From positions 1 through 28,937 of IMG/VR virus record IMGVR_UViG_3300048067_000040: a stretch of DNA of 28,937 bases, one strand, 5' to 3'. Positions 5,953-28,937 of the stretch are shown one piece after another. The position numbers and the translations under genes are program-made. The first letter of the stretch is position 1; each line of letters opens with the position of its first letter. Source of the DNA: a virus. The notes beneath the pieces are model-generated. The model saw nothing but the letters and a program-made list of their open reading frames with translations. It was not told the DNA's origin and searched no databases.

Positions 5953-5984
5953 CTTCTCCCTTAGTAAAGGCCGCTTATGCGGCC
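5953..5984 (-). repeat. Hairpin-plus-ribosome-binding-site cassette, copy 1
   Basis: Read leftward: GGCCGC, loop ATAA, GCGGCC, then CTTTACT... AAGGGAGAAG. It agrees at 30 of 32 positions with the cassette at 12826-12857 on the + strand. The loop is completed by the TAA stop of the upstream leftward gene, and the SD belongs to the downstream gene. Confidence 0.8.
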
Positions 5985-6463: not shown

Positions 6464-6658
6464 ATCATCATTCCCTTCGTTAGTGGCTGTGTCCTCAGCC
6501 GATGAATACAGTTTGCCTTGAAATGATAACAATGTAAACACACAAACAGAATTAAATTAACAAAAAAAGAAAAATATTTATCCTAAAGTGGTTGCGCATT
6601 GCCTTGAATGGTGCAATGATGTGCATTGTTCCATGTGGAACTTTGAAGGGAGAAAGCG
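6464..6658. promoter_or_regulatory. Divergent control region with palindromes
   Basis: A 195-bp gap between leftward and rightward genes. It holds an A/T-rich core (6540-6586), an interrupted inverted repeat GCATTGCC...GGTGCAATG (about 6598-6618), a related CAATG-ATGTG-CATTG palindrome (6614-6628), and GTTCC-ATGT-GGAAC (6628-6641) directly before the SD GAAGGGAGAAAG. The leftward leader hairpin lies at 6485-6500. Promoter boxes are expected in the A/T core, but none is strong enough to assign. Confidence 0.5.
6485..6500 (-). promoter_or_regulatory. Leader hairpin GGCTG-AGGACA-CAGCC, copy 1
   Basis: A 5-bp stem with a six-base AGGACA loop, 21 nt before the ATG of the 162-aa leftward gene. It is 15/16 identical to 12571-12586 on the opposite strand (19/20 when the preceding CATC is included). 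GGA is presented in a hexaloop. Confidence 0.6.
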
Positions 6659-7255: not shown

Positions 7256-7921
7256 GTGAAAAACATACCGGAAAAAGTAGGGCAGGCTTTACGTGAGATT
7301 GGAGAAACACCTGCAACAGCTTGCTGGGATTGTCACGGAACCCCTGTTATTTTGCATAAAGCACTAGAAAAGCTAGCCGCTCATTTAGGCATAGAGTTCG
7401 ATGAGCCACTTCATTTAGTAACTGATCCAGTTAACAAGCAAGTCGCGATGCAGGTCAAAGGTCGCCGAGTGATTTCAGAAGAATACGCCGTGGCTGAGGC
7501 TTGGTCGATTGGCGAAGTATCACCCGCTAATTGCAAGAACGCATATCCCTTTGCTATGGCGGAGAAGCGAGCCAAGGATAGAGTAATTTTAAAGCTGGCA
7601 GGTTTGCATGGTGACGTGTACTCCGAGTCAGAGGCGGAAGAATTCAAGGACGCAAAGCCTAGTTCAGACAATGAACTGCTGGAGTACAACGAAGCCGTCC
7701 GTGAGCATTGGGATTGGATCAACGGCGCAAAAGAAGCAATTGCTAATGAGGATTGGTATTCACTCGCTGGGATGTGGGGCGACATTGACCACGATACGAT
7801 GGCAACGCTATTTAGAGCGCCGACAAAGGGCGGCATTTTTACAACCACAGAGCGTTCGGCCTGCAAGGGTAACGACGCATTCAACCAAGCAAGAAAGGAG
7901 TTAGCAACCAATGGAGTATGA
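7256..7921 (+). CDS. Putative Rad52/ERF-like single-strand annealing protein
   Basis: 221 residues from a GTG start with AAGGAGGT 5 nt upstream. The recognisable core is around residues 75-125: EEYAVAEAWSIGEV, then CKNAYPFAMAEKRAKDRVILKLAG, then GDVYSESEAEEF. Phage proteins with this 'NAYP.AMAEKR.KDRV.LKL.G..G..YSE.EA..F' block are often mislabelled as tRNA isopentenyltransferases. They sit beside SSB genes and are better explained as annealing proteins. Here the SSB-like gene follows with an overlap, and a nuclease and NinB-like gene lie nearby. The annealing role is inference from core and context; a structure comparison with Rad52 or ERF would decide. Confidence 0.6.
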   Translation: MKNIPEKVGQALREIGETPATACWDCHGTPVILHKALEKLAAHLGIEFDEPLHLVTDPVNKQVAMQVKGRRVISEEYAVAEAWSIGEVSPANCKNAYPFAMAEKRAKDRVILKLAGLHGDVYSESEAEEFKDAKPSSDNELLEYNEAVREHWDWINGAKEAIANEDWYSLAGMWGDIDHDTMATLFRAPTKGGIFTTTERSACKGNDAFNQARKELATNGV

Positions 7922-8174
7922 CAACACGAACCGCGGCGTACTGTTTAAGAACGACCGCAAAGAAAAGGAAAGCCAGCCTGACTACAAGGGCAATTACACC
8001 GATGGCAACGGGTCAGAGTTTTGGCTGTCAGCGTGGCTCAAGAAGGACAAAAACGGCAACACCTTCATGTCACTCAGCACGACGGCAAAGGATGACGCTC
8101 ACAATAATGGGATGGCTCAAGCACGCCAAGCCGCAAAACCGACACAGGAGCTAGAAGATGACCTGCCTTTCTAG
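7911..8174 (+). CDS. SSB-like single-stranded DNA-binding protein
   Basis: 87 residues, short for an SSB. The N-terminal ~55 (NRGVLFKND... DYKGNYT... GSEFWLSAWLKKDKNGNTFMSLS) have the strand and aromatic pattern of a small OB-like fold such as those in phage SSB/DUF736-type proteins. The tail is acidic and ends DDLPF, matching the conserved C-terminal tip through which SSBs recruit replication and repair partners. It overlaps the putative annealing protein by 11 bases and the XRE regulator by 17. The tip plus context make the call fairly good; the fold is unproven. Confidence 0.7.
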   Translation: MEYDNTNRGVLFKNDRKEKESQPDYKGNYTDGNGSEFWLSAWLKKDKNGNTFMSLSTTAKDDAHNNGMAQARQAAKPTQELEDDLPF

Positions 8175-9368: not shown

Positions 9369-9889
9369 AGGTTCGTCTTAGTCGCAGAGATTTATTGACT
9401 GCTGAATGTATGGGTGCAGATACGGTTGCACTATGTGAAAAGCTCATGGGTTTTAAGCCAAGACTTGAAAATGAGAAGCAGAGCAGAGTTGAGGCGAACA
9501 TACTCGGCTACAAAGCGGAGATAGCCGTTGCTCGTTTGTTAGATATAGACCTTCCGGCTGTTAATGTCATGACCGATGGCGGTGTTGATTTGTGGTTCGA
9601 CGACGTTTCTATTGACGTCAAGTTTACTAACAAAGAATACGGGCCACTTATTTTTGACAATATGACTAAGTTCAAAGCCGACGTTGCAGTATTAGTCGGT
9701 GCGACGGATGACCCTGCCGTTATGAGAGTTAACGGTGCATACCCGAGGTCAAAGTTTGAGTGGGATTGCCAGCGGAAAGATTTTGGCTATGGCGAGAGAG
9801 AGTATATGGAGGCAGAAAACATCTACCCAATTGAATGGCTTTGGTTGACCCTAATGAAAAAAAAACACGGTGCGCAAAATGATGGGTGA
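9365..9889 (+). CDS. PD-(D/E)XK-type nuclease, putative
   Basis: 174 residues. The motif order fits the restriction-endonuclease-like fold: E52 in GYKAEIAVARLL, then D75 in GGVDLWFDD, then D84-V-K86 in SIDVKFT, followed by a strand-rich region (DVAVLVGATDDPAVM). The acidic residues and lysine have the E...D...DxK spacing of the catalytic core. Such enzymes pair with annealing proteins in phage recombination, or act as Holliday-junction or packaging-related nucleases. It overlaps both neighbours in a DNA-metabolism operon. The fold call is reasonable; the substrate is unknown. Confidence 0.65.
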   Translation: MKVRLSRRDLLTAECMGADTVALCEKLMGFKPRLENEKQSRVEANILGYKAEIAVARLLDIDLPAVNVMTDGGVDLWFDDVSIDVKFTNKEYGPLIFDNMTKFKADVAVLVGATDDPAVMRVNGAYPRSKFEWDCQRKDFGYGEREYMEAENIYPIEWLWLTLMKKKHGAQNDG

Positions 9890-10319
9890 ATTCTGGTTAA
9901 TAAAAGACCCGATAGAAATCAAAGACCGCATCAAGGCGTTTCAGACGTTTCTTGAAAAAGAATGGTGTTGGGATAAGCCAGTGTCTTGGCAGGTTAAAGA
10001 GTACAAGCCACGCCGCTCAATGAGTCAGAATGACCTGTTCCATGTCTGGGTCAGGGATATGCTGAGGCACTTTAAAAAGAAGGGTGGCTTCACTGGCACA
10101 GAGGAAGAAATGAAGCTGATGGTGAAGTACAAGTTCCTCGGCACAGAGGATATCGAGGTCGGCAGTACGAACATACCAGCGCAGGTTCGGCGCACATCGA
10201 CGCTAGATCGGGGGGAAATGCTATACTTCATGCAACAAGTAGAGGCATGGTGTATTGATCTGGGTGTCAAATTGACTAAGCCTCAAAGTTCGGAGTACGC
10301 CAAACTCGCAGGGGGATAA
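9879..10319 (+). CDS. ninB: NinB/Orf-like recombination protein
   Basis: 146 residues from the ATG at 9879 (9882 also possible; a GTG at 9870 is weaker). The pattern SWQVKEYKPRRSMSQNDLFHVWV is the 'RS..QN.L.W' signature near the start of NinB (lambda Orf) proteins. Later segments VRRTSTLDRGEMLYFMQQVEAW and LGVKLTKP match the family's C-terminal helix and closing strand. Orf-type proteins help load RecA or annealing proteins onto SSB-coated DNA, consistent with the SSB-like and annealing genes upstream. It overlaps the nuclease gene by 11 bases. Confidence 0.7.
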   Translation: MMGEFWLIKDPIEIKDRIKAFQTFLEKEWCWDKPVSWQVKEYKPRRSMSQNDLFHVWVRDMLRHFKKKGGFTGTEEEMKLMVKYKFLGTEDIEVGSTNIPAQVRRTSTLDRGEMLYFMQQVEAWCIDLGVKLTKPQSSEYAKLAGG

Positions 10320-10321
10320 GC

Positions 10322-11479
10322 ATGAGCTTATTGCAGTTTTGCACAACCGAAAGGCAGAAAGAAGTAGCGAGCCGAGTAGATCAGGGTATGAGCGCCCGCG
10401 AAATAGGACTGGACCTTGGTATTAGTAGGACTACTGTTCGCGATCATTTAAAGGCGGTGCAGAAGAAAGCCAGCGCGCAGGGTTACAGTCCAGAGCATGA
10501 CTATACGCACCCTGTCCCTGACGGCTTCACAGTGAAGGGTGTCTCCACGCTATACACTGACGGAAAACCCGTTGCTCAGTGGGTGAAAAGCCAGTCAGAC
10601 AAAGAACACGTCCTGCAAGTTGCGCTCGATAGCTTTAAAGAAGGGTTGAAAGACGACCTGAAAGGCTTGGCAAAGCCTGTAAAGAAAAGCAAAGCCAAGA
10701 AACAAAAAGACCGCATGGCCGTCACCATCGTCGGCGACCATCACCTTGGGATGCTGGCTTGGACACCAGAGACAGGGGCTGACCCTTGGGACTTGCAGAT
10801 TGCACAAGACACCCTAATTAAAGGCGTTGATAAACTTCTGGCAAGCACCGGCGATTGCGCTGTAGGCGTTTTGCTCAACGTAGGTGACATGATCCACGCT
10901 AACAACCTAAAGGGCGAGACAGGCGCAGGGACGCCTCTCGACGTTGATGGCAGAGCAGGCAAGACCATTAGGGCCGCAGGCAACCTTTTCCAAATCATTG
11001 TCACTAGAATGCTCCAGCAGTACGACGAGGTGTGGCTGATTAACGCTCGCGGCAACCATGACCCTGACGCCTCTCTCTGGCTTAACGAAATGCTTCGTAT
11101 GTACTACGAGAAGGAAAAGCGCGTTAAGGTGTTCGACAACTTTAACAAGTTCATCCATTTTGAGTGGGGCAATAACTTCGTCATTACGCATCACGGTGAC
11201 AAGATACGCACTCGGCAACTGTACGAGGCAATCACTCGAGACTATGCGCAGGAGTGGGGGCGCACCAAGTATCGCTTTGCATGGACTGGTCACATTCATC
11301 ACAAGCAAGCTGAGGAATTGGGTGGGCTTACTTGGGAAAGCTGGTCTGTACTGCCACCGCCTGACGCATGGCATTCAGCCAGTGGTTACGGGTCACAACG
11401 CTCAATTTCTTGTGTAGTATTAGACAAAGAACACGGCGAGTTCAGTCGGTTCAAAGTCGGTATAGAGGCACTGCAATGA
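10322..11479 (+). CDS. HTH-calcineurin-like phosphoesterase fusion
   Basis: 385 residues in two parts. Residues ~8-50 are an HTH of LuxR/sigma type (ERQKEVASRVDQGMSAREIG; then ISRTTVRDHLKAVQ). After a basic linker (KPVKKSKAKKQKDR), residues ~132-385 are a metallophosphoesterase with the motif series GDHHLG, NVGDMIH, ARGNHD, THHGD and GHIHH, supplying the expected di-metal Asp, Asn and His ligands. Enzymes of this class include SbcD/Mre11-type DNA nucleases. Here the HTH suggests DNA-targeted activity, possibly in phage DNA processing. It starts 2 bases after the NinB-like gene and overlaps the next by ATGA. Confidence 0.8.
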   Translation: MSLLQFCTTERQKEVASRVDQGMSAREIGLDLGISRTTVRDHLKAVQKKASAQGYSPEHDYTHPVPDGFTVKGVSTLYTDGKPVAQWVKSQSDKEHVLQVALDSFKEGLKDDLKGLAKPVKKSKAKKQKDRMAVTIVGDHHLGMLAWTPETGADPWDLQIAQDTLIKGVDKLLASTGDCAVGVLLNVGDMIHANNLKGETGAGTPLDVDGRAGKTIRAAGNLFQIIVTRMLQQYDEVWLINARGNHDPDASLWLNEMLRMYYEKEKRVKVFDNFNKFIHFEWGNNFVITHHGDKIRTRQLYEAITRDYAQEWGRTKYRFAWTGHIHHKQAEELGGLTWESWSVLPPPDAWHSASGYGSQRSISCVVLDKEHGEFSRFKVGIEALQ

Positions 11480-11718: not shown

Positions 11719-11881
11719 GTGCGGTAAAGAGATGGTGCCGATGTTCACAGCTAAGGGCGGCAAGCTAGAAGGCTGGTCGTGTGAGTGCGGCAATATAGAG
11801 AAAGCAATACTACGGGAACGACAATTCACTACAGAGACGTACTATGGCAATAAAACGAACGAACGCCGACATTTGGTGTAG
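11705..11881 (+). CDS. Zinc-ribbon mini-protein
   Basis: 58 residues from the ATG at 11705, 14 bases inside the previous gene. It carries C3-x2-C6 and C26-x-C28, a compact zinc ribbon, then a basic C-terminal segment (ILRERQFTTETYYGNKTNERR). It lies between a phosphoesterase and an HNH/NinG-like gene, and overlaps the latter by 38 bases. Nucleic-acid or protein binding is expected of such ribbons; the specific partner is unknown. The upstream ribosome-binding site is weak (GTGAAGATC), so translation may depend on coupling. Confidence 0.55.
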   Translation: MVCTKCGKEMVPMFTAKGGKLEGWSCECGNIEKAILRERQFTTETYYGNKTNERRHLV

Positions 11882-12227
11882 CAAGGCTGTGAGGCTACGT
11901 GACGGCGCTTGTGTGCGATGTGGCAACACAGAGACGAATCAGGCCATGCACATATATGGTCGCAGAAATAAAGTCGTGAGGTATAGCCTCGATAATTTAC
12001 TCACGGGCTGTTACACCTGCCACCGCTTATTCACCGAGTCGCCCGTCATGTTCACTGACTTTTGCAATCAGCATCTAGGTGAAGGCCACATGGAAATATT
12101 GCGTGAGAAGTCGCGCGGCATTCTGAAAGAAAACAAAGCCGTTCGCGATGAGATAGCCAAGCATTACCGCGAGCAGATCAAGCTCAAAGAACAGAACCCC
12201 GACCATGTGATGATTTCATATAACTGA
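11844..12227 (+). CDS. NinG/HNH-like zinc nuclease
   Basis: 127 residues. The N-terminal core has C23-x2-C26, the H36 'MHIYGRR' box, then 'SLDNLLTGCYTCH' with C56-x2-C59-H60. This is the C..C...H...N...C..CH arrangement of phage NinG (Rap) and HNH proteins. The C-terminal half is a charged helix (MEILREKSRGILKENKAVRDEIAKHYREQIKLK). NinG-type proteins resolve or nick recombination intermediates, which fits the NinB-like, annealing and nuclease genes nearby. A homing-type HNH is less likely because there is no insertion context. Confidence 0.65.
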   Translation: MAIKRTNADIWCSKAVRLRDGACVRCGNTETNQAMHIYGRRNKVVRYSLDNLLTGCYTCHRLFTESPVMFTDFCNQHLGEGHMEILREKSRGILKENKAVRDEIAKHYREQIKLKEQNPDHVMISYN

Positions 12228-12461: not shown

Positions 12462-12601
12462 GTAATCTGACTGCGCCAGACCATTGCGCTTTCCCTTCCC
12501 CATATAATTATCAAAAAAAGATAACAAAGTGCTTGCAAAGGATAATTGCAGGTAGTAGATTAACTACATCGGCTGGGGACACAGCCTCAAGGGAGAAGGA
12601 T
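12462..12601 (+). promoter_or_regulatory. Leader region with promoter boxes and three inverted repeats
   Basis: A 140-bp gap. TTGCAA (12533-12538), 17 bp, TAGATT forms a candidate promoter. Around it are TTATC-7A-GATAA (about 12509-12525), GTAGT-agatta-ACTAC (about 12553-12568) and the GGCTG/CAGCC leader hairpin. The palindromes overlap the -10 box and start, as operators do. Confidence 0.4.
12571..12586 (+). promoter_or_regulatory. Leader hairpin GGCTG-GGGACA-CAGCC, copy 2
   Basis: Same element as the leftward copy at 6485-6500, here 15 nt before the ATG at 12602 and directly before TCAAGGGAGAAGG. The single difference (A/G) is in the loop, so stem and GGA are preserved. Confidence 0.6.
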
Positions 12602-12835
12602 ATGGAAGCGAATCAAGTTCAACACGGCTTTGCGGATGATGGTCTGCACTGGTACGAAGACAAAGACCCCGAAGGTTTTACCGCGCTAATCTGGCGCACG
12701 AAGTCGATTTTCCAACCTTGGAAAGTCAATTTGTCTTGGACTGCAACGGGCAGGCCATTACGCGCAAAGCATTTTGGAACGCTTGAGGCGGCGCGTGATT
12801 ATTGTCTTAGGGCAACTAACAGTGTGGTCGCATAA
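12602..12835 (+). CDS. Hypothetical small protein
   Basis: 77 residues from the ATG at 12602 (SD AAGGGAGAAGG). It is rich in Trp and aromatics (LHWYEDKDPEGFTALIWRT; then FQPWKVNLSWTATGRPL) and ends with a helix (GTLEAARDYCLRATNSVVA), suggesting a compact beta-sheet plus one helix. It is first in a run of very small genes that share hairpin-SD leaders. Its TAA stop lies in the loop of the next hairpin. No family is recognised. Confidence 0.6.
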   Translation: MEANQVQHGFADDGLHWYEDKDPEGFTALIWRTKSIFQPWKVNLSWTATGRPLRAKHFGTLEAARDYCLRATNSVVA

Positions 12836-12857
12836 GCGGCCTTTACCAAGGGAGAAG
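12826..12857 (+). repeat. Hairpin-plus-ribosome-binding-site cassette, copy 2
   Basis: GGTCGC, loop ATAA (includes the stop of the preceding gene), GCGGCC, then TTTACC and AAGGGAGAAG. It is 30/32 identical to the leftward copy. The C-to-T change in the stem leaves a G.U pair, so base pairing survives in RNA. Confidence 0.8.
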
Positions 12858-12861
12858 GGAT

Positions 12862-13044
12862 ATGGAGTTTTATCAGGAAATCTACGGCCAATATCGAGCC
12901 TATAAAATGAAGGGGAGGTTCATCCGCATTTTTGATATGCAAGGTAGGCACATTGTGGACGCATCATTGAGTGAGCCTTGCCGCCTGTACCTTAACGATG
13001 TGTTGCGCGGCTTCCGCACAGCCGAATACATTATGGCCGCATAA
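12862..13044 (+). CDS. Hypothetical small protein
   Basis: 60 residues with SD AAGGGAGAAGGGAT. It is basic and strand-rich at the N-terminus (YGQYRAYKMKGRFIRIFDMQGRHIVDASL), with a helix after it (PCRLYLNDVLRGFRTAEYIMAA). The last codons GCC GCA TAA form part of a perfect GGCCGC-ATAA-GCGGCC hairpin, so the Ala-Ala C-terminus may be dictated by the RNA structure; the 162-aa leftward protein also ends Ala-Ala for the same reason. Function unknown. Confidence 0.6.
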   Translation: MEFYQEIYGQYRAYKMKGRFIRIFDMQGRHIVDASLSEPCRLYLNDVLRGFRTAEYIMAA

Positions 13045-13062
13045 GCGGCCTCAAGGGAGAGG
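13035..13062 (+). repeat. Hairpin-plus-ribosome-binding-site cassette, copy 3
   Basis: Perfect GGCCGC-ATAA-GCGGCC (13035-13050) with the TAA stop in the loop, then TC and AAGGGAGAGG. The spacer between hairpin and SD is shorter than in copies 1 and 2 (TTTACY is missing). Confidence 0.75.
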
Positions 13063-13065
13063 GTT

Positions 13066-13212
13066 ATGTGGGGATACACAATCATTGGTCGTGACGGTGG
13101 CGAGGCTTACACGTCTGAGCCTGAGTATGAGACGTACAAAGAGGCTGAAAAGGCTGGCGATCATACCTTGTGCGACATGAACGAGGGTTCATTAGAGGTT
13201 TGGGAAGACTAA
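13066..13212 (+). CDS. 48-residue hypothetical protein
   Basis: ATG at 13066 after CAAGGGAGAGGGTT. The 48-residue product starts MWGYTIIGRDGGEAYTSEPE and is followed by a helical, acidic C-terminal half ending SLEVWED. It could be a tiny strand-helix protein. Its stop overlaps the start of the sigma region 4-like gene (TAATG). Clear start signals on both sides support it despite its length. No family is recognised. Confidence 0.6.
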   Translation: MWGYTIIGRDGGEAYTSEPEYETYKEAEKAGDHTLCDMNEGSLEVWED

Positions 13213-13436
13213 TGGCACGAGCTATCGACTTTCATTACAACATGACACATCAAGAAATCGCGGATGTCATGGGTGTAAGCCGTCAAACAATCAGAACGAT
13301 TGAAATCAGAGCGTTAAAAAAACTAAGAAACAATCCAAAATTGAAGGGGTACTGCGATGCACTTACATCCGAATATCAAATATGCGGTGATTTTCCTGTT
13401 AGTGGTGATAGCATTCGGGATAGCTGGTCAGGGTGA
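13212..13436 (+). CDS. Sigma-70 region 4-like HTH protein
   Basis: 74 residues from the ATG at 13212 (TAATG overlap). Residues ~10-44 (NMTHQEIADVMGVSRQTIRT, then IEIRALKKLRNNPKL) closely follow the region 4.2 pattern of sigma-70 factors ('MTLEEIG..LGVSRERIRQIE.RALKKLR'). Region 2, which binds the -10 element, is absent, so it cannot be a full sigma factor. Stand-alone region-4-like proteins can act as DNA-binding activators or compete at the RNA polymerase beta flap. It ends overlapping the next gene by 80 bases. The late promoters here are extended -10 with no -35, a type that does not need region 4. Confidence 0.65.
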   Translation: MARAIDFHYNMTHQEIADVMGVSRQTIRTIEIRALKKLRNNPKLKGYCDALTSEYQICGDFPVSGDSIRDSWSG

Positions 13437-20671: not shown

Positions 20672-21099
20672 GCGTTAGAGAAAACATTGCAACGAATCTT
20701 GTGACAGCACTGCAAGCCATCTCGACTCCTAACGTTAAAAAGGTGACGCGTGAGCCATTCGACTTTGACAAGCTATCAAACGCGCAATTCCCAGCCATAC
20801 TAGTACGCACAGCGAACGAGACGAGAGAAGACGCCAGCATTGGCGGAAGTATGTCGAGCAGGCAAGGAACTATCGACTACGAACTGATTTGCTTTGTGAA
20901 AAACAAAAACATCGACACAGCCCGCAATCAGATTGTAGAGGCTATCGACGAAAAGCTCGACGAGGATAGGACGCGTGGCGGTCACGCTATTGATACGCAA
21001 GTTATTAGCGTTGAGGTGGATGATGGTACAATAGACCCAGTAGGCGGCGTCATTGTCACCGTTCAAATTCTTTATACATACACACGCGGTGACGCGTAA
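20668..21099 (+). CDS. Tail terminator protein (gpU/DUF3168-like)
   Basis: 143 residues with an alpha/beta pattern: MSVRENIATNLVTALQAI... FPAILVRTANETREDA... TIDYELICFVKNKN... ARNQIVEAIDEKLDED... VGGVIVTVQILYTYTRGDA. The strand-strand-helix order with a final 'V.I.Y.Y..G.A' is typical of siphovirus tail terminators that cap the tube and join it to the head. Position immediately before the tube protein supports this. Confidence 0.7.
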   Translation: MSVRENIATNLVTALQAISTPNVKKVTREPFDFDKLSNAQFPAILVRTANETREDASIGGSMSSRQGTIDYELICFVKNKNIDTARNQIVEAIDEKLDEDRTRGGHAIDTQVISVEVDDGTIDPVGGVIVTVQILYTYTRGDA

Positions 21100-28500: not shown

Positions 28501-28937
28501 GCTCGGCAAATGGCGCGGGTATAACCATACAAGATGCTGTTAGCGCATCGACTGACGCGACGATTCTATGGGATGCAACAACCGACACGTTTGATTTCAG
28601 CCATCCTGTAGCTATTACGGGCGCACTTACTAGTACAGAATTGACTATTACTGGCGGCTCTAATACTGCTGACATTTATATAAATAACACATCACCAACA
28701 CTAGGTTTCACAGACAGCAACTCATTTTCTGATTCTAATGATATTTATATTGTTAGAGCAGGGTCAACAGGAGATTTACAGTTTCAGTTTTTTGATAACA
28801 GTGCAAATACCACTACAACCACATTTCAAATTGATGAGACAGGCAATACCACCATCGCAGGCACCATATCTAGTGGGGCTATCACTAGCAGTGGCATTTC
28901 ATCTTTTGGTAACGGAACGACGGTAGGAGGTATCGAG
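25518..28937 (+). CDS. Tail tip / receptor-binding protein J-like with fibre extension (3' partial)
   Basis: Open from the ATG at 25518 to the window end (1,140 codons, no stop). It opens with a hydrophobic ~45-residue Gly/Ala-rich segment, as in J-like tip proteins. Then come the tip core (KIVYGKMRVGGQVVFISNSG; ALCLRDYMLDDKYGLGE; QIRANIEQLLASMGGMLTYSGGKY; GDTINVTNDRLDY), two fibronectin III-like domains (VTNLTLTETAFKG... ; APTSASATGGIQTITAEW...), a DDAIGNSQIADDAVDITKI linker, a beta-rich domain and a fibre start (LDNLDSTQFLRSDQNDTMNG, then NTATLDVEDKNITINYG). It ends in the shaft repeat GAITSSG. The piece at 1-1684 is probably its C-terminus. Confidence 0.9.
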   Translation, partial: MAIAAVAGLASLGGAALAGFVTSFAVGLGYFALGAGLSMVSRALAPKPNIGAQMRGITQTSREPAGSRKIVYGKMRVGGQVVFISNSGDDNKYLHMAIAFASHEIESYEEIWFNDKKVWTLSGGFQSDWGTYVTIDRKFGTAGQAASTDLVNANVLWTTNHKLSGIAYIAFRLEWDADKFPQGVPNITAVLKGKKVYDPRSSSTGWSQNPALCLRDYMLDDKYGLGEVTANIDSTALTAAANLCEEQVTLDAGGTQDRYQCNGVIETGNQIRANIEQLLASMGGMLTYSGGKYFIDGAEYKTPTLTFTEADVISDIQTQTKQSRRGVYNGVKGIFVSEEKNYKVLDYPPQISSTYATEDGDPIYLDMALPFVTNNTQAQRLAKIALLKSRQQVVINMTVNLKGLKVKVGDTINVTNDRLDYSSKVFQVIDYSLAIADGGALAVNLACIETASAIYDWTTSDEEDFLSGGELDLYDGRTVANVTNLTLTETAFKGPDGNLISAVDLTWTGPTDAFVELYKVRYNKTGTTNYFYASTREPRVYISGLDITSNYDFRVKAENLIGVSSTGTTLSNQALSGDTTAPSAPTSASATGGIQTITAEWTNPSDIDFKHTEVFVNTSNSIPATPTAVVDGEEYIVTGLSGAATRYFWLKSVDFSGNKSAATASFSGASVVADSSDIGDDAIGNSQIADDAVDITKIANTLETTNFSTTNGTGWQIKTDGTATFNDVNVRGEVVATQLNVQDATISGSLKANELSDGIVKITSVSQEVWNEIESRVGSTTGSTGFFESASGNLTGGDLTLTTASTKPHTLGQTVYFELDAIYFWSSATSVSGDDLLLDVKFQHSTDNVTYTTANTTQITVERHNYFNGFMYDIDNSVQYQLTGLAAGNYYFRVSLEPVGATPNAFSIAYQGVPVTFEVNEIGTGTVATGGNADTLDNLDSTQFLRSDQNDTMNGSLIVTGDLTIQGTTTTLNTATLDVEDKNITINYGAGDTSGSANGAGITIQDAVSASTDATILWDATTDTFDFSHPVAITGALTSTELTITGGSNTADIYINNTSPTLGFTDSNSFSDSNDIYIVRAGSTGDLQFQFFDNSANTTTTTFQIDETGNTTIAGTISSGAITSSGISSFGNGTTVGGIE

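Follow-up and report, generated by a model that had tools for sequence, protein, structure and literature searches.

Small Genes Joined by Stop-Codon Hairpins in Two Phage Operons

The DNA analyzed here, hereafter the window, is a stretch of 28,937 nucleotides from a virus (IMG/VR record IMGVR_UViG_3300048067_000040, positions 1 to 28,937). Its terminase and capsid are nearest to those of the Pelagibacter phages HTVC111P/202P (48-54% identity), blastn of isolate phages found none with the same region, and the phage is only distantly related to isolates. The window carries two operons, one running rightward at 12.5-13.4 kb and one leftward at 6.5-5.7 kb, in which the same hairpin recurs between genes (Table 1). 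We call this intergenic stop-codon hairpin S, for seam, and a second hairpin that heads each operon L, for leader. A Pfam scan gave no family for the cassette proteins of the window, and the 60-aa product of cassette gene 2 had no relative among isolate phages.

S has the form GGYCGC-AUAA-GCGGCC. In each of its three copies the loop is the stop codon of the upstream gene (the loop TAA ends the reading frames that finish at 12835, 13044, and 5975), and an SD sequence follows the stem after 6 nt (S1), 2 nt (S2), or 6 nt (S3). A previous, sequence-only reading of this DNA had described a hairpin at three gene junctions whose loop supplies a stop codon, with an SD 2-6 nt further on, and all three copies were recovered here. 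We likewise counted 30 of 32 identical bases between the two longer copies, and the one stem change that it had said keeps RNA pairing is a C or T at stem position 3, giving G-C or G.U. It had also given two proteins an Ala-Ala C-terminus; two of the three indeed end so (MAA and LAA), and the third ends VVA. The SD that it named, AAGGGAGAAGG, is exact in the first copy only, the other copies having AAGGGAGAGG and AAGGGAGAAGT. The second hairpin at the start of both operons, GGCTGRGGACACAGCC, was absent from that account. When up to three mismatches were allowed, the window contained six matches to S (three sites, each on both strands), whereas dinucleotide shuffles of the window contained a mean of 0.39 and none of 100 reached six. 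An Rfam search of the window gave no match at E up to 1.

Table 1. Features of the two operons and recombination-related genes in the window.
Feature	Position	Strand	Basis or detail
Predicted sigma-70-type promoter, rightward operon	12533..12561	+	-35 TTGCAA 12533-12538; -10 TAGATT 12556-12561
Predicted transcription start, rightward operon	A12568	+	Fixed promoter signals relative to leader hairpin
Leader hairpin L, GGCTG-GGGACA-CAGCC	12571..12586	+	Sequence; leader common to IMG/VR stretches and Aeromonas phage 59.1
Cassette gene 1, 77 aa, ends VVA, stop in S1 loop	12602..12835	+	ORF call
Seam hairpin S1, GGTCGC-ATAA-GCGGCC	12826..12841	+	Exact copy; pattern search
SD AAGGGAG of cassette gene 2	12848..12854	+	Sequence
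Cassette gene 2, 60 aa, ends MAA, stop in S2 loop, family 1557	12862..13044	+	ORF call
Seam hairpin S2, GGCCGC-ATAA-GCGGCC	13035..13050	+	Exact copy; pattern search
SD AAGGGAG of cassette gene 3	13053..13059	+	Sequence
Cassette gene 3, 48 aa, family 1326 (MWGYTII...)	13066..13212	+	ORF call
Anchor gene, 74 aa, family 621, sigma-70 region 4-like	13212..13436	+	PF04545, E 1.2e-11
Leader hairpin L, GGCTG-AGGACA-CAGCC, leftward operon	6485..6500	-	Predicted start at 6503
Leftward cassette gene 1, 162 aa, ends LAA, stop in S3 loop	5975..6463	-	ORF call
Seam hairpin S3, GGCCGC-ATAA-GCGGCC	5969..5984	-	Exact copy; pattern search
SD AAGGGAG of leftward cassette gene 2	5956..5962	-	Sequence
Leftward cassette gene 2, 93 aa	5667..5948	-	ORF call
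SSB-like gene	7911..8174	+	Similarity
NinB/Orf-like gene	9870..10319	+	Similarity
Exonuclease-like gene	10322..11479	+	Similarity
NinG/Rap-like gene, directly upstream of rightward array	11844..12227	+	Similarity

Distribution of the Seam and the Leader

A relaxed search returned 122 copies of S in 89 loci, nearly all of them viral metagenome contigs, and 104 copies were left after dereplication. Among IMG/VR stretches, 34 matched the S core followed by AAGGGAG, 18 matched the form with a GTAA loop, 71 matched L followed by AAGGGA, and 76 matched L alone. Isolate phages gave only short matches to S, without an SD. The carriers of S are a group of mostly aquatic phages, small and, by terminase and capsid, HTVC111P-like.

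The leader CATCGGCTGGGGACACAGCCACTAACCA is also present in Aeromonas phage 59.1 (KY290950.1), exact at 28/28 bases (locus L089:6001-6028), where it is intergenic and stands directly before an annotated gene. This phage is an isolate of another phage group with another SD (GAAGGAA), and it offers a culturable model for the leader. L with an SD was found in none of the bacterial genomes of GTDB that were searched; one bacterial-genome match, inside a coding region (L090), was put down to chance. A search for L in plasmids and E. coli gave no match.

Gene Neighbors Change at Seam Junctions

Genes were called with a simple ORF caller, proteins were grouped into families by BLASTP, and junctions were compared between loci with near-identical replicates left out. 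For junctions whose upstream genes were at least 50% identical we scored whether the downstream genes were homologous, and did the same in the reverse direction. In these comparisons, which are not independent of one another, a homologous downstream gene was kept at 7/59 S junctions (12%) as against 1660/2244 other junctions of the same contigs (74%). Matched controls retained the downstream gene at a rate of 0.61 when both genes were shorter than 130 aa, 0.67 when one gene belonged to an S-linked family, and 0.57 when both did. The upstream gene was kept at S in 3/64 comparisons, versus 0.65 at other junctions, with corresponding controls of 0.44 (both <130 aa), 0.33 (one S-linked family), and 0.18 (both); the last and strictest value indicates that these genes are to some degree mobile in themselves. 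At the level of families, the excess of partners at S had the same direction and was modest (Fisher p 0.012 and 0.034). We found 25 junction pairs in which near-identical upstream genes are followed by unrelated downstream genes, and 39 of the reverse kind. The earlier suggestion that the hairpin is recombination-linked, to be checked by looking for it at the borders of swapped genes in related phages, is therefore strongly supported: S is widespread in relatives and marks changes of gene neighbors there.

The two halves of the hairpin have different histories. When the same upstream gene is joined to different downstream genes, the type of 5' arm and loop agrees in 20/34 cases, compared with 19% after shuffling (a level reached in 0/2000 shuffles), and the spacer type agrees in 8/34, which is not significant (133/2000). 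When the same downstream gene follows different upstream genes, it is the spacer type that agrees (21/52 versus 12% shuffled; 1/2000), and the arm type shows no agreement (13/52 versus 19% shuffled; 363/2000). The 3' arm GCGGCC is near-invariant (74/77). Thus, the 5' arm and loop go with the gene before the junction and the spacer goes with the gene after it, placing the crossover within the hairpin. The proposal of a mobile 32-base cassette does not hold in this form, since the 32 bases are divided in exchange: 5' arm and loop are retained upstream, spacer and SD downstream. The units that move are instead the genes between seams. In three loci (L021, L060, and L063), the S spacer TTTACCAA runs straight into an L-type spacer, CTACTAACCAAGGG, which is what the joining of an L-type unit and an S end would produce.

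The Stop Codon in the Loop and the Preservation of Pairing

An in-frame stop lies inside the loop in 93 of the 100 hairpin-plus-SD candidates that have a long open frame, and each of the loop variants ATAA, GTAA, GTTTTAA, ATTCTAA, and TTGTAG contains one. A stop-in-loop hairpin was present at 131 of 1902 called genes, versus 15 in shuffles. The common tetraloops are R-UAA, of which GUAA fits the GNRA class, and the next start codon stands ~19-20 nt after the stem.

Pairing of the stem, which the earlier reading had held to be maintained, is preserved across relatives. All five core pairs are intact in 102/104 dereplicated copies, and compensatory double changes occur in two, GGCAGC-GTAA-GCTGCC (L102) and AGTCGC-ATAA-GCGGCT (L084). 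Single stem changes are C>T in 24 contexts and G>A in 1, a bias that preserves G.U pairs in the transcript, although recombination spreads variants, so that these contexts do not represent independent mutations. A formal covariation pair count for S was positive and moderate. Preserved pairing makes an RNA role of S likely in general terms, with transcript-end protection, translational hand-over, and attenuation as candidate functions.

Some copies depart from the usual arrangement. In L038 (+ strand, ~1115-1165), the loop stop of an S copy is replaced (GCCGC-AGAA-GCGGC), and the frame appears to continue to a TAA within the L-type spacer ACTAACC. In L008, L040, L064, L075, and L080, S copies are followed within ~10 nt by ATGACAAGAGC... 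with no recognizable SD; re-initiation after termination in the loop is possible for these copies.

Array Architecture and the Leader

Arrays start with the promoter and L, continue with one or more genes, many of them linked by S, and often end with family 443 (MTTIVFNSLES) or family 621. Operons carry one to four tiny genes, and most cassette genes encode 45-90 aa. Written with family numbers and with =S= for a seam, the window array is L-1899=S=1557=S=1326-621, and the same anchor is found in L-1557=S=621 (L085), L-1669=S=1326-621 (L006), L-1202=S=443-621 (L041), and L-621 (L050). Family 1557, the second cassette gene of the window, therefore sits directly behind L in L085. Family 1326, the third, follows a variety of upstream genes in other phages, and of 40 families that stand behind L in some phage, 12 stand behind S in a different one. 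The family 621 anchor gene, a recurrent array end located before terminase genes, could be a transcription regulator.

Aligning 25 dereplicated promoters on L placed a -35 signal (TTG) at -38 to -36 and a -10 signal (TA...T) at -15 to -10, and given this fixed distance, the predicted start is the invariant A three bases before the stem (GGCTGGGG). A generic promoter scan did not list the predicted promoter at 12533-12561. The predicted transcript would begin AUC-[GGCUGGGGACACAGCC]-ACUAACCAAGGGA, with three unpaired 5' bases. The stem of L is fixed by the search pattern, but apart from a C contained in the L plus AAGGGA pattern, AUC and ACUAACCA lie outside it, and their conservation is informative for that reason. 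Variants found free of this bias, GGCTGACGGACAGCC and, with a G.U pair, GGCTGGAGACACAGCT, keep the fold. Other hairpins occupy the position of L before AACCAAGGGA, such as GTTCC-ATGT-GGAAC, and an unrelated hairpin, ACGCC-GTGA-GGCGT, which can hold TGA in its loop, precedes AAACCAAGGGAGA in L019 and L087. The consensus for CsrA-type proteins is A(N)GGA. Binding of such a protein to L, which has GGA in its loop, was considered and dropped, as the loop of S has no GGA and the major L loop is off the consensus.

Proposed Mechanism and Alternative Explanations

We think it likely that S is a recombination seam and an RNA device at once, the standard intercistronic joint of accessory operons. Several parts of this scheme are well supported by the comparison of relatives: the 5' arm and loop encode the final residues and stop of the small gene before the joint, whereas the 3' arm, spacer, and SD lead the next; related phages differ in their gene combinations, with junctions at S and the crossover within the hairpin; and operons are ordered as promoter, L, one to four tiny genes, many of them linked by S, and often an anchor gene. 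Exchange itself likely proceeds by ordinary homologous recombination or strand annealing over ~16-30 shared bases with the help of phage functions, a route consistent with the brief stretch of homology and with the window's recombination genes, and through it a unit of RBS, ORF, and stop could be inserted, lost, or replaced with expression retained. The 221-aa protein encoded before the SSB gene (7256-7921, +) matched no family and, by its position, may be an annealing protein.

The hairpin would owe its conservation to a function in the mRNA. The location of L points to a 5'-terminal protecting stem-loop, and S may be its internal counterpart, protecting transcript ends after cleavage. Alternatively, S may set the hand-over from the terminating to the initiating ribosome; a ribosome must open the hairpin to read the loop stop shortly before the next start, which would suit hand-over. 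Copies with a U-tract, which do not include those of the window, may also attenuate transcription. More tentatively, the shared parts could be standard ones, such that units of RBS, ORF, and half-hairpin slot behind L or S between a fixed promoter and a fixed anchor, with the tetraloop stop acting as recombination seam and RNA device, amounting to integron-like modularity without an integrase.

If S were purely an RNA element, serving end protection or translational hand-over, the mosaicism would reflect ordinary illegitimate exchange and the hairpin would not be the exchange point. The preserved pairing of S agrees with this, as do the location of L at the predicted transcript start and the recurrence of the same architecture with the unrelated hairpins ACGCC-GTGA-GGCGT and GTTCC-ATGT-GGAAC. 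However, neighbors change far more often at S than at other junctions of the same contigs, including small-gene and same-family ones, and the two hairpin halves are inherited differently, making this explanation unlikely. We consider it quite unlikely that S is a structural insulator keeping the SD free of upstream pairing: the hairpin is predicted to fold near-certainly and ends directly before the ribosome-binding stretch, yet mean predicted SD accessibility fell only slightly when the arms were shuffled (S, 0.55 to 0.50-0.54; L, 0.61 to 0.57). With shifts of 0.01-0.05, a hairpin that insulates or exposes the RBS is not favored. An intrinsic terminator or attenuator closing each small gene would account for the 29/123 copies with at least six T within eight bases past the stem (e.g., GCGGCC-TTTTCTTTT). 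Most copies have no T-run, among them all three of the window on the sense strand (TTTACC, TCAAGG), a terminator scan did not list the window copies in sense orientation, and the loop stop codon plays no part in transcription termination; this reading is distinctly improbable.

The organization of one-ORF units between short inverted repeats, arrayed behind a fixed promoter, could also be the work of a dedicated enzyme (integron-like, IS200/IS605-like, or homing-type) that recognizes the hairpin in single-stranded DNA. Against this, no integrase or transposase was seen among the window genes scanned, the candidate enzymes that are present are homologous-recombination functions, every unit has its own SD, and the stem changes leave pairs that RNA accommodates well (G.U), and only on the sense strand, so that such an enzyme is very unlikely. 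Finally, as the shared stretch is a short repeat of ~30 bases in metagenome assemblies, chimeric assembly might join unrelated genes at it. The alternative partners recur in independent samples. Family 855 is joined to 715 in two loci (L053 and L059) and to 1669 in two others (L066 and L071), and family 1420 stands behind 1363 in one pair of loci (L009 and L029) and behind 1796 in another (L011 and L012). We regard such an artefact as extremely improbable.

Relation to Known Systems and Significance

The accessory genes of phages turn over fast, and how a new gene stays expressible has mostly been inferred. The seam described here is short, defined, repeated, and recognizable from sequence, which allows exchange to be located at single-base resolution and examined in crosses; S may be likened to a snap-fit connector for trading genes between related phages. 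The fixed promoter-leader and the recurrent anchor provide a handle for collecting small unknown phage genes from metagenomes, some of which possibly function in host takeover or counter-defense.

A full-text literature search for stop-codon hairpins with gene cassettes in phages returned nothing relevant. The closest known kind, to go by the papers that cite it, is the PeSL (promoter early stem-loop) of T4-like phages. PeSL cassettes are reportedly the subject of work by Arbiol in 2010 and by Comeau in 2014. As described in papers citing that work, PeSLs of T4-like phages combine an early promoter with a stem-loop and mediate gene shuffling (PMC4503421), and a similar motif, a TATA-box plus inverted repeat, is described in the haloarchaeal virus HGTV-1 (PMC3950731). 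Like PeSLs as portrayed there, S is a stem-loop repeated between genes of a plastic region, and gene order changes at it. Unlike them, S lacks a promoter, its loop is the upstream stop codon, and it has an SD on its 3' side; its 16 bases and the ~20 nt to the start codon are too short to house one. A promoter accompanies the hairpin at L alone, once in each operon, and the phages that carry S are small and HTVC111P-like by terminase and capsid, not T4-like. Without a promoter and with a stop codon and SD, S thus works like a PeSL, on that description, but is not one.

In cluster K mycobacteriophages, SAS/ESAS elements are short repeats at the RBS of many non-structural genes, SAS (13 bp, GGGATAGGAGCCC) sitting at the start codon and a second part, an inverted repeat, lying upstream (PMC3203893). 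The ESAS arms were reported not to support an RNA hairpin, and the elements tend to stay with a gene family (PMC3203893). S too is a short repeat at ribosome-binding sites with an inverted repeat upstream, but its sequence is another one (AAGGGAG with the hairpin rather than GGGATAGGAGCCC), it pairs (102/104 cores kept), and it marks neighbor changes. Lambdoid phages have boundary or linker sequences, short sequences shared at gene borders that permit homologous exchange of single genes. S is likewise a short shared gene-border sequence, whereas the linkers are not known to be defined by a hairpin with a stop codon in its loop.

Integron gene-cassette arrays consist of exchangeable one-ORF units behind a fixed promoter, with a folded sequence at the end of each unit. 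S arrays are also exchangeable one-ORF units behind a fixed promoter, each ending in a folded sequence, but each unit has its own SD, the stem changes fit RNA pairing, and no tyrosine-recombinase integrase was found among the window genes scanned, the relatives' contigs being fragments. The ompA leader is a 5'-terminal stabilizing stem-loop. L would resemble it, its stem being preceded by just three unpaired bases if transcription begins at the predicted start; S differs in being internal.

Further Hairpins and Repeats

Additional hairpins were noted in the course of this work. GGGGC-TTCTT-GCCCC, another SD-fused hairpin, is followed by AAAAAAGGGA and has a conserved upstream AACAGGCCGAAAAGGTC (25 copies, in L005, L007, L013, L016, and others). 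A leader hairpin, TGTCGGAGCTTGCTCCGGCA-TTAAAAGGGAAGTGTGG, lies between a conserved upstream sequence and several different genes in L010, L016, L017, L038, L044, L062, and others, making this a further junction with varying downstream genes, and the leader hairpin GTCGGGGATGTCCCGGC stands directly behind promoter-like sequences and before an SD in L018, L023, L024, and L032. In the virion-gene region of the window, ACGCG-GTGA-CGCGT (21084-21097, +) lies directly before AAGGGAGAAACAAATG, and this hairpin is also found in L072. Moreover, two 52-base stretches near opposite ends of the window, 677-728 and 28845-28896, are 75% identical.
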